Of a stretch of 64,000 nucleotides of DNA, positions 32,471-38,346 are shown piece after piece; position 1 is the first letter of the stretch; every line of letters begins with the position of its first letter. The notes beneath the pieces are model-generated. The model had not been told where the DNA came from and made no database searches. It was given only the letters and a program-made list of their open reading frames with translations. The stretch is from an uncultured Prevotellaceae bacterium (lineage in GTDB: Bacteria > Bacteroidota > Bacteroidia > Bacteroidales > Bacteroidaceae). The stretch covers positions 1 to 64,000 of the forward strand of contig CAMNIN010000013.1 of NCBI GenBank assembly GCA_946540735.1, written 5' to 3'. The position numbers were made by a program, and so were the translations under genes.

Positions 32471-33625
32471 ATGAAAAAACTATTAATGGTGCTGGCATTC
32501 GTCAGCGTTTCTTTCTCAGCCATGGCTCAGGATGATCCTACACTGAAATACAGTGTGGCCACGAATTCATTCTGGAGCAACTGGTTTATTCAGGTTGGTG
32601 CCCAGTGGAATGCTTGGTATTCTGCTGAGGAGCATGGATCAGGTCTCGACCGCAGTCCGCTGGAGGACTTCCGTTCAAACCCTGGCGCTGCCATCGCTAT
32701 CGGTAAATGGTTCACACCGGGTCTTGGACTCCGTACCAAACTGATGGGTATCTGGGGCAAGCAGGTTCGTGCCGATGCTCAGAACAATGCCATCGGTAAG
32801 GGCAACAAGTTCTGGCTTCTCAATGAGCACATCTTGTTCAACGTGAGCAATATGCTCTGTGGCTACAATCCCGATCGCGTTTGGAATTTCATTCCTTTCG
32901 TCGGTGGTGGCGTAGGCCGTTCTATGACTTATAACAGATATGGCATGGACCTCAGCGCAGGTATCCTGAATGAGTTCCGTCTTAGTCGTAAAGTGTTCCT
33001 CAACCTCGAGGTGGGATGGAACCGTATCGAGACCGATATCGATGGCTTCAATCCTGTTCTTGATCCCGGAAACCGTGGTTGGGATTCTCACGACAACCTT
33101 CTCTATGCTGAGCTGGGTCTGACCTTCAACCTCGGCAAGGGAACATGGGACAAAGTGCCCGATGTCGCTGCTATCAAGGCTCTCCATCAGTCACAGATCG
33201 ATGCTCTCAACGCTCAGCTTGCTGACGCCAATGCAGAGATCGACCGTCTGAACAACCTCATCAAGAACCACAAGTGCCCCGAGGCTCCGAAAGTTCGCGC
33301 TATCGCTCCTCCTGCAACTGTGTACTTCTACTGCGACAAGACCAAGAGCGGTCCTTCTTACTCACGTGACCTCGTCGACGTTCGCGCACTGGCCAAGTAT
33401 GCTATGGAGCAGGGTGCTGACGTGCTCGTGACCGGTTATGCTGACAGCGCTACAGGTAAGCCTGATCACAACCAGTGGCTGTCTGACGAGCGTGCTAAGA
33501 CCGTGGTTGAGGAAGTTGTTGGTGTGGGCGTGAGCCGCAGCAAGATCACTGCCGTTGGTAAAGGTGGTGTCGATATCCTCTCACCGTTCGAGCTCAACCG
33601 TCGTGCTACAGTTGAGGTCCGTTAA
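32471..33625 (+). CDS. Major OmpA-family outer-membrane protein
   Basis: A 384-residue protein with signal peptide ending SAMAQ. The N-terminal barrel spans about residues 25-235 (AIAIGKWFTPGLGLRTKLMG; NVSNMLCGYNPDRVWNFIPFVGGGVGRSM). A short coiled coil (QIDALNAQLADANAEIDRLNNLI) joins it to an OmpA-like domain (about 275-384; GADVLVTGYADSATG, LSDERAKTVVEEVV, NRRATVEVR). The strong TATCTTTG -7 box at 32397-32404, codon use shifted toward highly expressed genes and a strong terminator suggest a very abundant protein. It is a paralogue of the gene at 16365. Confidence 0.9.
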   Translation: MKKLLMVLAFVSVSFSAMAQDDPTLKYSVATNSFWSNWFIQVGAQWNAWYSAEEHGSGLDRSPLEDFRSNPGAAIAIGKWFTPGLGLRTKLMGIWGKQVRADAQNNAIGKGNKFWLLNEHILFNVSNMLCGYNPDRVWNFIPFVGGGVGRSMTYNRYGMDLSAGILNEFRLSRKVFLNLEVGWNRIETDIDGFNPVLDPGNRGWDSHDNLLYAELGLTFNLGKGTWDKVPDVAAIKALHQSQIDALNAQLADANAEIDRLNNLIKNHKCPEAPKVRAIAPPATVYFYCDKTKSGPSYSRDLVDVRALAKYAMEQGADVLVTGYADSATGKPDHNQWLSDERAKTVVEEVVGVGVSRSKITAVGKGGVDILSPFELNRRATVEVR

Positions 33626-33648
33626 TCGAGACTTTACACACAATCATA

Positions 33649-33681
33649 AAAGAGCGCCTTCCGCAAGGAGGCGCTCTTTTT
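33649..33681 (+). terminator. Intrinsic terminator of the OmpA-like gene
   Basis: AGAGCGCC and GGCGCTCT form a GC-rich stem followed by TTTTTGATT. Confidence 0.88.
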
Positions 33682-33696
33682 GATTGTCCCCCTATC

Positions 33697-33729
33697 AAAA
33701 AAAGTAGAGACGTCACATTGTGGCGTCTC
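33697..33729 (-). terminator. Probable intrinsic terminator of trpS
   Basis: On the minus strand, GAGACGCCA and TGACGTCTC pair into a 9-bp stem with one G-U pair (33707-33729), followed by TAC and a run of seven T. It lies about 385 bp after the trpS stop, so the tandem arrays between would be in its 3' UTR. Confidence 0.65.
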
Positions 33730-33762
33730 CTCATAATCTTTGTAGCTGTCTCTTGTTTTTTC

Positions 33763-33870
33763 CTAGTTTCCCTAGTCCATTCTAGCTCTAACTAGTTTTC
33801 CTAGTCCATTCTAGTTCTAACTAGTTTCCCTAGTCCATTCTAGCTCTAACTAGTTTCCCTAGTTTTCTAG
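33763..33870. repeat. Tandem array of CTAG motifs, 29-bp unit
   Basis: Three copies of a 29-bp unit (33764-33792, 33793-33821, 33822-33850) and part of a fourth. Each unit holds three CTAG palindromes. Counted from the left there are twelve CTAGs (starting 33763, 33772, 33782, 33792, 33801, 33811, 33821, 33830, 33840, 33850, 33859 and 33867), separated by 8-10 bp, close to one per helical turn. The TAG they contain stops all frames of both strands, so the block is certainly non-coding. Confidence 0.92.
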
Positions 33871-33924
33871 TGCAATCTTGTTATTATGCTCTTACTGGTG
33901 ATATGTAGCAGTGCAGCCTTTGCT

Positions 33925-34100
33925 GCGGTCTTTATCACGTCTCTTCCGCTGTTTCTGCCGCGGTCTTTATCACGTTTCTTCCGCTGTTTCTGTCGCGGTC
34001 TTTATCACGTTTCTTCCGCTGTTTCTGCCGCAGTCTTTATCACAGTCTCTTCCGCCGTTTCTGCCGCGATCTTTGCCACAGTCTTTGTCGCTGTCTGCCT
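33925..34100. repeat. 35/36-bp tandem repeat array
   Basis: About five copies of a unit with core GCGGTCTTTATCACGTTTCT, starting at 33925, 33960, 33995, 34030 and 34066, the last degenerate. The spacing is 35, 35, 35 then 36 bp. As 35 is not divisible by three, the open frames in the track are frame-shifted reads of the same repeat, not genes. Confidence 0.9.
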
Positions 34101-34113
34101 CTGACTCGTTCTC

Positions 34114-35103
34114 TTATCCCATTCTGAAACCGATGATTTTCCTGACTTCGTTGAGCGTGGCGGCGGCACTCTCTCGTGCGCGTTCTGCTCCTTGACGGGC
34201 GATTCGGTCGAGCAAGTCCTTGTTGGCACTGAATTCAGTGATGCGCTCTCGGATAGGGGCGATGGTGCTGATGAGGTCGGCAGCTATCTGCTTCTTCAGA
34301 TCTCCATAACGGATAGAACAGTCTTTCCACTTCTCGTCGAAATAGTCGTAGGCTTCCTGGTCGTTACACAGCTGAAGGAAAGAGAATAGGTTCTCGATGA
34401 TTTCCGGACGCTCGCTGTTGGGCTCCTGGGGTCCAAGGTCTGTAACGGCTTTCATCACCTTCTTGCTGATCACCTTATCCTCATCACGCAGGTAGATGCA
34501 GTTGCCTTCGCTCTTGCCCATCTTTCCGCTGCCATCAAGGCCTGGAACTTTCACTGCCTTGTCAGCGAAATAGAAATTCTGTGGCTCGGGAAAAAACTCC
34601 ACACCGTAGATGTTGTTGAAACGGCGGGCACATTTCCGTGCCATCTCCATGTTCTGCTCCTGGTCTTTCCCTACTGGCACCTTGTGAGCCCTGTGCTGCA
34701 GAATGTCGGCAGCCATGAGGGTGGGGTAGGTGAGCAAACCGGCATTCACGTTGTTGGGCTGTTTGCGTGCCTTCTCCTTGAATGTGGTGACTCGTTCCAA
34801 CTCTCCAAGATACATGTTCATGTTGAAAAAGAGATAAAGCTCAAGCGTCTCTTTCACGTCACTCTGTATGTAAATCGGGGCTTTCTCAGGGTCGATGCCA
34901 CAGGCAAGATATTCTGCCAGGATGGTGCGGGCACTGCTTTGGATATCGTCGGGCTTGGGGTGGGTCGTCAGACTATGCCAGTCGGCGATAAAAAACATGC
35001 ACTCGTATTCATCTTGCATTTTCACAAAACTTTTCACCGCACCGAAGTAATTGCCAAGGTGCAGGTTGCCAGTGGGCCTGATGCCACTTACTACTTTTTC
35101 CAT
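34114..35103 (-). CDS. trpS: Tryptophanyl-tRNA synthetase
   Basis: A 329-residue class I synthetase with the HIGH-equivalent TGNLHLGNYFG at residues 11-21 and the KMSKS-equivalent GKMGKSEGN near 190. It attaches tryptophan to tRNA-Trp. The start at 35103 is followed by the conserved VVSGIRPTG. TACCTTTG on the minus strand (35133-35140) is the -7 box, without a clear -33. The 3' flank up to the probable terminator at 33697 holds the CTAG and 35-bp arrays. Confidence 0.95.
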   Translation of the reverse strand: MEKVVSGIRPTGNLHLGNYFGAVKSFVKMQDEYECMFFIADWHSLTTHPKPDDIQSSARTILAEYLACGIDPEKAPIYIQSDVKETLELYLFFNMNMYLGELERVTTFKEKARKQPNNVNAGLLTYPTLMAADILQHRAHKVPVGKDQEQNMEMARKCARRFNNIYGVEFFPEPQNFYFADKAVKVPGLDGSGKMGKSEGNCIYLRDEDKVISKKVMKAVTDLGPQEPNSERPEIIENLFSFLQLCNDQEAYDYFDEKWKDCSIRYGDLKKQIAADLISTIAPIRERITEFSANKDLLDRIARQGAERARESAAATLNEVRKIIGFRMG

Positions 35104-36915: not shown

Positions 36916-38346
36916 ATGGACATCGAAAACGAAAAAACAAACAAAGAAGAATTGGCACAAGATCAGAATGCTGGTGGCCGTGAAGGTTATCAATCAGGAG
37001 GACAGAACGGCAACTATTCCAGAGACTATCGTGGCGGACAGCGTCCGCAGCGTCCGCGTATTCACACGCAAAGAACTTATTCGACAGAACGTAATTTCGA
37101 GGATGAAGGCGGTTTCCGCCCCGAAGGTTTCGGAGCTGGTCTCCAGTCGGGTGGCGGACAGCGTCCTTATCGCCCTCGTTACAATAATTATAATGATAAT
37201 CAGCAGGGTGGCGGCTATCAGCAGCGCCAGGGTGGTTATCAGCAGCGCCAGGGTGGCTATCAGCAGCGCCAGGGCGGTTACCAGCAGCGCCAGGGCGGTT
37301 ATCAGCAGCGTCAGGGCGGTTATCAGCAGCGTCAGCAGGGCGAAGGCTACCAGCAGCGCGAAGGTTACCAGCGTCAGGGTGGTTACCAGCAGCGCCAGGG
37401 CGGCTATCAGCAGCGCCAGGGTGGTTACCAGCAGCGCCAGGGTGGTTACCAGCAGCGTCAGGGTGGTTATCAGCAGCGTCAGGGCGGTTATCAGCAACGC
37501 CCGGGCGGCTACCAGCAGCGCGGTGGCTATCAACAAGGCGGCTACCGCCAGCAAGGTGGCTATGACCCCAATGCAAAATACAGCATGAAGAAGCGTATCG
37601 AGTATAAAGAGGAGCATATCGATCCCAATGAGCCGATCCGCCTCAACAAATTCCTGGCCAATGCCGGCATCTGCAGCCGCCGTGAGGCTGATACCTTTAT
37701 TCAGGCAGGCGTGGTGAAAGTCAACGGCAATGTGGTGACCGAACTGGGTACCAAGGTGTCTCGCACCGACGAGGTGCTGTTCCACGATCAGCCGGTCAGA
37801 CTCGAGAAGAAAGTGTATGTGCTGCTCAACAAGCCTAAAGACTATGTCACCACAAGTGACGACCCGCAACAGCGCAAGACCGTCATGGACCTGGTGAAGA
37901 ATGCCTGCCCGGAGCGCATCTATCCCGTGGGAAGACTCGACCGTAATACGACTGGCGTGTTGCTCTTGACTAATGATGGCGACCTGGCCAGCAAACTGAC
38001 TCATCCCAAATTCTTGAAGAAGAAGGTCTACCATGTCTTCCTCGACAAGAATGTGACAGCTCATGACATGAGCCAGATCGCAGAGGGCATCACCCTCGAC
38101 GACGGTGAGATTCACGCCGACGCCATAGAGTATGCCAGCGATACCGACAAGAGTCAGGTGGGCATCGAGATCCACAGCGGTAAAAACCGTATCGTGCGTC
38201 GTATTTTCGAGAGTCTGGGCTACCGGGTGATCAAGCTCGACCGCGTGCAGTTTGCAGGCCTTACCAAGAAGAATGTGCGCCGTGGCGACTGGCGGTTCCT
38301 CACAGAGAAAGAGGTTGACATGCTTCGCATGGGTGCTTTTGAGTAA
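36916..38346 (+). CDS. rluB: Large-ribosomal-subunit pseudouridine synthase with GGYQQRQ-repeat N terminus
   Basis: A 476-residue protein. The C-terminal 245 residues are a normal RluB/RsuA-type enzyme: S4 domain ([18 protein letters not shown]), [15 protein letters not shown], catalytic Asp in [17 protein letters not shown], and the [10 protein letters not shown] end. It should isomerise a uridine of 23S rRNA. The first 220 residues are low-complexity: Arg/Gly/Tyr/Gln-rich, with about a dozen GGYQQRQ heptads interrupted by [11 protein letters not shown], coded by 21-bp DNA repeats. The tail probably binds RNA and is disordered. The large antisense ORFs here are a product of the repeats. asnS follows 25 bp after the stop. 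Confidence 0.9.
37206..37560 (+). repeat. 21-bp coding tandem repeats of rluB
   Basis: Heptad-coding units (GGYQQRQ) arranged in two blocks around a short break at about 37333-37377, with synonymous changes between units. Replication slippage could change the copy number in-frame. Confidence 0.9.

Follow-up and report, generated by a model that had tools for sequence, protein, structure and literature searches.

The CTAG array and its surroundings

The window, that is, the whole analysed stretch of 64,000 nucleotides, contains an unstranded array of twelve CTAG tetranucleotides at 8–10 bp spacing (33763..33870; direct reading and TRF). The CTAG starts at 33763, 33772, 33782, 33792, 33801, 33811, 33821, 33830, 33840, 33850, 33859, and 33867 are separated by 9, 10, 10, 9, 10, 10, 9, 10, 10, 9, and 8 bp, exactly as given in an earlier note on this DNA. 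The 29-bp tandem array described there was likewise recovered: the higher-order unit comprises 29 bp (CTAGTTTCC-CTAGTCCATT-CTAGCTCTAA), and TRF returned 33763-33863 with a 29-bp unit, 3.5 copies, and 94% matches.

The location between the ompA terminator and trpS was also verified. On the left, a gene for an OmpA-domain outer membrane protein (32471..33625, + strand), assigned by weak OmpA-type matches of its product (E 1e-9 to 1e-6, below the cut-offs), is followed at its 3' end by a terminator-like hairpin with a T tract (33652..33681, + strand). The hairpin was read directly, and its core stem also appeared in a consensus scan. On the right lies trpS (34114..35103, - strand; TIGR00233, E 1e-84), convergent with the OmpA-domain gene. 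A second, unstranded tandem array found by TRF, with a 35-bp unit (12+12+11) in 4.4 copies (33921..34074), is located 50 bp from the CTAG array and may possibly belong to the same class. An Rfam search of 33500-34200 returned no match. The predicted RNA fold of the CTAG array is stable (z -7.1); since self-complementary CTAG units pair, this stability was not counted as evidence. Elsewhere in the window, 21-bp coding repeats (GGYQQRQ; 37210-37521) lie in the N-terminal part of an ORF (36916-38346) that by eye resembles a pseudouridine synthase.

The window contains 20 CTAG, twelve within the array and eight elsewhere, compared to 127 +/- 10 in dinucleotide shuffles. CTAG is thus strongly avoided in the window outside the array. 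Judged by positions modulo 3, the array reaches TAG in all three frames of both strands, as had been claimed; this holds for the window array and is no general property, as a related array in an amidase gene is read through.

Arrays in the genome, the genus, and other phyla

The assembly from which the window derives (G000; 3.72 Mb, 100 contigs) carries additional CTAG arrays whose spacers are quite different. Nineteen CTAG lie between a glucose/galactose-type transporter gene and galK (contig C1), and 13 lie inside a cell-wall amidase gene (C17), where they are translated in frame as (SPTSPP)n. On contig C38, arrays of 5 and 24 CTAG border a small gene, one on each side. This gene encodes a protein termed 4HB in the following, which is a small four-helix-bundle protein of the S23/IVP type and carries a TIGR04258 C-terminal suffix. 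The array upstream of this CTAG-type 4HB gene (C38:926-1141) shows the same mix of 9- and 10-bp spacing as the window array.

Four CTAG at strict 9-bp spacing (CTAG9), a pattern that overlooks mixed-spacing arrays such as that of the window, were found in 73 of 150 genus genomes, where a single genome can have as many as 189 matches, whereas the reversed control (GATC) was almost always zero across the 150 genomes. A seven-CTAG pattern in named genomes occurred, among the matches listed, mostly in Bacteroidales (Prevotella and relatives), and also in Victivallales, Kiritimatiellae, and other Verrucomicrobia-type MAGs, with a few single matches elsewhere. Judging from their near-identical spacers, the single matches in other phyla are ordinary minisatellites: median spacer identity is 0.88 for CTAG minisatellites of other phyla versus 0.59 for Bacteroidales-type arrays. 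Each of the five spacer positions carries only 0.06–0.24 bit of information (820 units).

Across the class, consecutive CTAG at distances of up to 40 bp are exactly 9 bp apart in 1116 of ~1270 cases. The earlier note had placed all sites on nearly one face of the DNA. This was a weak inference and does not generalize, because with a step of 9 bp each site lags a full helical turn by about 50 degrees; the helical-phase model was rejected as a general rule.

Viruses were considered as carriers of the arrays and rejected, as the CTAG9 arrays found in IMG/VR are for the most part homogeneous; the fetched viral loci contained no 4HB gene. Diverse-spacer CTAG arrays with a 9-bp period, without a 4HB gene, were seen on the viral contigs L096, L166, L136, L093, and L106. 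The spacers AACCG, GCATC, and CGGTT are common to several viral contigs.

The 4HB protein and its flanking arrays

The 4HB protein encoded in this genome scored 69.1 bits against TIGR04258 (cut-off 40), 29.7 bits against TIGR02436 (above the cut-off of 24), and 27.2 bits against PF05635 (below the cut-off of 33.8). In a Pfam scan, 22 of 23 4HB members matched PF05635 (23S_rRNA_IVP) with E <= 0.001, and no transposase model was among the Pfam matches of the 23. The AlphaFold model is confident and helical (mean pLDDT 89.7). The closest solved structures according to Foldseek are the S23-family entries 2gsc and 2rld (prob 1.00, but E only 0.009–0.16), with a TMt of 0.77–0.85 for 2gsc against the predicted fold. 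A PDB sequence search gave no match, and searches with PADLOC and PHROGs gave no convincing one. Profile searches found no nuclease, transposase, polymerase, or other catalytic domain in the 4HB protein, so a spreading of arrays by this protein, and the enzymes through which it might proceed, are conjectural.

TIGR04258 is present in 84 of the 150 genus genomes, specifically in 52 of 73 genomes with arrays versus 32 of 77 others (Fisher p = 2e-4). When 65 4HB genes were chosen by protein alone, 41 had four or more copies of their class motif in register next to them, 12 of the 65 had arrays on both sides, and 24 were without a clear array. Nine downstream arrays begin at the 4HB stop codon, which is the TAG of the first CTAG. 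A motif-blind flanking test was positive for 25 of the 65 genes compared to 1 of 241 background windows (p = 4e-18). Conversely, 11 of 118 array loci chosen from public genomes regardless of their genes contained a 4HB gene, one of them in a Kiritimatiellae MAG, versus about 0.3 expected by our own estimate from the genus-wide density.

Clustering of the neighbouring ORFs in the 65 loci gave no common partner gene, and this candidate was rejected. The neighbours that recur most often look by eye like type I restriction genes, each present in 6 of 65 loci; beyond these, the unit is a single gene with its arrays. By-eye type I restriction-modification subunits (specificity, restriction) stand beside 4HB genes in L288, L295, L296, L322, L325, L330, L334, and L348.

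Divergent homologues of the suffix (30–35% identity) showed no flanking arrays in L498, L504, L525, L527, L531, and L533, and may form a sister family with a different role. No 4HB-suffix gene was detected in some complete or near-complete genomes that carry arrays, for example G010 (99%, 3 contigs, 53 pattern matches) and G094 (99%, 69 pattern matches). Either the gene was lost there, or another agent is at work, or the link is indirect. CTAG arrays of G010 (L509, L510, L511, L512) are situated within composite repeats that have inverted flanks (GAGAGTTGCCCGTC / GACGGGCAACTCTC) and also contain 7-bp GAGAGTT-type arrays.

Array motifs follow the protein clade

The arrays bordering 4HB genes have a period of 9 or 10 bp and are built on the motifs CTAG-N5, CTATAG-N3, CCTAG (10 bp), TGGGAG-N3, TCAGARTAN, ATAAGNCCN, CCCAC, and CCTAAAG. 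A tree built from 80 4HB proteins requires 20 changes of motif class versus 46 in shuffles, and the TCAGA, TATAG, TGGGA, and CCCAC classes each form a single clade. In an out-of-sample test on 39 further 4HB loci, the class was predicted from the nearest typed protein. The prediction was correct for 17 of 18 scorable new genes, scorable loci being those with a clear array and a typed neighbour of at least 60% identity, chosen by eye afterwards. In the one mismatch, L492, the period is still 10 bp, with CCCAG replacing CCTAG.

Dispersed arrays show a related pattern. TGGGAG arrays away from the 4HB gene are abundant on many contigs of G089, G133, G053, and G058, the genomes with TGGGA-clade genes. 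Dispersed TATAG and TCAGA arrays likewise track the resident 4HB type, with exceptions; examples of a match are G053 (TGGGA), G101 (TATAG and CTAG9), and G103 (TCAGA). As 4HB typing used the flanking arrays and the genome counts include them, this association is partly circular and overstates the independent signal.

The earlier suggestion that the array may bind a protein gained indirect support, as both the motif and the period of the arrays go with the clade of the protein whose genes they flank. From these sequence comparisons we strongly infer that 4HB proteins recognize the motif of their own clade.

Placement and turnover

With a simple ORF caller, 63 CTAG arrays were placed between tandem genes, 22 between convergent and 3 between divergent genes, and 33 inside ORFs; 360 background gaps were 238 tandem, 56 convergent, and 66 divergent. 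The median distance of arrays from the 3' end of a gene is 30 bp. The arrays shun promoter regions and cluster near 3' ends, as has been reported for REPs, which lie close to where unidirectional and convergent ORFs end (PMC3733652).

Non-palindromic arrays adjoining 4HB genes are mostly in sense orientation. Dispersed TGGGA arrays are 3 sense and 14 antisense, and TCAGA arrays in tandem intergenic regions 8 sense and 7 antisense; the antisense lean of the former and the mixture of the latter argue against a purely RNA-sense role as a general rule. A sense array followed by its antisense array, a long potential hairpin, was seen downstream of the 4HB gene in L290, L299, L333, and L343; L501 has such a pair, also a potential hairpin, upstream of the gene.

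Four relatives with a readable intergenic region between ompA and trpS showed no array there. The nearest of them is 93% identical in the OmpA-domain gene, and even in this relative the intergenic region has diverged such that exact insertion boundaries are not definable. The earlier note had taken the same flanks without an array, or with random CTAG spacing, as a sign of a chance minisatellite. The same flanks without an array were indeed found; a chance origin does not follow from this, as the absence shows recent gain or loss. In G377 (locus L375), the site of the window's CTAG array is taken up by the REP-like repeats CCCTCTCCCTCCGGGAGAGG and GTAGAGACGTCACATTGTGGCGTCTC, the latter of which also occurs in the window near 33704-33730.

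Upstream of galK, the 19 CTAG of this genome are spaced at 9 bp. G356, which carries a CTAG10-type 4HB gene, has an array of 10-bp period at this position, G201 has a 9-bp array with other spacers, G237 retains a two-CTAG remnant, and six relatives have none. At the C38-type locus of G377, the orthologous 4HB gene is 83% identical and the spacers are unrelated, while CTAG and the 9-bp period are kept. Taken together, the galK and G377 comparisons indicate that motif and period are held and the rest turns over.

Interpretation and alternative explanations

We consider the window array to be a dispersed representative of a repeat class that is coupled to a protein and REP/RAYT-like in its working, with a probability of roughly 0.6. 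Direct observations behind this reading are the flanking of 4HB genes, the match of motif to clade and its prediction in new genes, the co-occurrence across genomes, and the turnover between relatives. The unit would be a single 4HB gene bordered by a short fixed motif with a strict 9- or 10-bp period and free spacers, each protein clade having its own motif. A 4HB oligomer may recognize the periodic motif, one unit per subunit. Together with host replication, repair, or reverse-transcription enzymes it could expand and remodel arrays and seed new sites, comparable to the action of RAYTs on REP repeats. Solo arrays of the same motif are found in transcribed places (mainly directly after stop codons, between operon genes, and inside reading frames), and are gained and lost quickly. 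Whether S23-type clade-specific proteins that read, seed, expand, and remodel arrays as single-gene selfish elements, even inside genes, make up an undescribed class is in our estimate an even bet.

The 4HB protein might instead be a host regulator or a nucleoid or RNA-processing factor, with arrays selected for host benefit. The conservation of motif and period against fast spacer turnover would suit such a function, as would the prominent arrays beside the 4HB gene itself, reminiscent of autoregulation, and the recurrence of galK arrays in this genome and in 3 of 9 readable relatives. The sites are, however, poorly conserved (0 of 4 readable relatives at ompA-trpS), a quarter of the arrays lie inside ORFs, and divergent promoter regions are avoided (3 arrays, compared to 85 in tandem or convergent gaps; 66 of 360 in the background), which makes sites of host function rather unlikely. 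Quite unlikely, too, is a TRAP-like role at the RNA level, in which a ring oligomer would bind the motif in transcripts and arrays would act at 3' ends or between cistrons. It would account for the transcribed positions, for the mostly sense orientation of non-palindromic arrays by 4HB genes, and for a fixed motif and period with free spacers, and the S23-type fold is compatible with it; the dispersed arrays, however, are not uniformly sense.

Ordinary minisatellites that arose by slippage from a chance seed, their link to 4HB being due to hitch-hiking or lineage structure, are a very improbable explanation. The 29-bp higher-order repeat of the window array, the varying copy numbers, and the presence of other short tandem repeats in the same genomes would fit. 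Against this stand the avoidance of CTAG elsewhere in the window, the sharing of motif and period by unrelated sites with different spacers, the gap in spacer identity to ordinary CTAG minisatellites, and the prediction of motif from protein clade out of sample. The earlier proposal of a decayed minisatellite is not supported, as spacers diverge while motif and period hold, and unrelated sites share the motif.

S23-type four-helix-bundle proteins are common and their structures are solved; a motif code that follows the clade makes their function directly testable. If the proteins spread arrays, they would provide a second, unrelated route to dispersed bacterial repeats after REP/RAYT, and intergenic regions and protein linkers would be rewritten by them in a genus that is prominent in gut and rumen. 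Binding alone would still make them a family of nucleic-acid readers that are motif-specific and have a modular target.

Comparison with known systems

Searches of the open-access literature for CTAG arrays, repeats in Prevotella, TIGR04258, and Avd turned up nothing relevant, and the NCBI record of TIGR04258 may mention flanking repeats. Judged against open-access papers and libraries, this suggests that the protein-coupled CTAG-type repeat class was previously undescribed.

Like minisatellites and VNTRs, the arrays are tandem and variable in copy number. Ordinary minisatellites are confined to one locus, have near-identical units, and lack a dedicated protein, whereas the units found here share only motif and period, occur at many unrelated loci, and have a cognate protein family. 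TRAP binds GAG/UAG-repeat RNA with a period of about 5 nt. The likeness to TRAP lies in a very short fixed motif, free spacers, and near-constant spacing; the fold is different, and the 4HB arrays have a period of 9–10, several motif clades, and a dispersed occurrence that is mobile over evolution, RNA binding being hypothetical here.

The S23 or 23S rRNA IVP family (PF05635, TIGR02436), which is related to the DGR accessory protein Avd, shares its profile and fold with the 4HB proteins, as seen from the PF05635 matches and from 2gsc and 2rld. The 4HB proteins differ by the additional TIGR04258 suffix domain and a long C-terminal helix, and their genes lie outside rRNA and are tied to periodic arrays. 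No reverse transcriptase was among the recurrent neighbour families listed for the 65 loci of ~3–7 kb.

The closest parallel is REP/RAYT. According to a published description, RAYT genes are always flanked by REPs, co-evolve with them, and their presence correlates with REP abundance (PMC2817692). Correspondingly, a dedicated gene is flanked by the repeat in 41 of 65 cases, repeat and protein co-vary, the abundance of the cognate repeat tracks gene presence (with the exceptions G010 and G094), and the repeats lie near the 3' ends of unidirectional or convergent ORFs. In contrast, RAYTs are IS200/IS605-type (HUH, Y1) tyrosine transposases and the 4HB protein is an S23/IVP-type helical bundle. 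REPs are GTAG-tagged imperfect palindromes of 20–40 bp that form a stem-loop, whereas the 4HB arrays have a 4–6 bp motif with a 9–10 bp period and free spacers, include several motifs that are not palindromic, and are often inside ORFs. As the transposase and the palindromic unit are missing, the system is not a member of REP/RAYT; as the relations known from RAYTs hold in most cases for a protein and a repeat that are both unrelated to theirs, its design is REP/RAYT-like.
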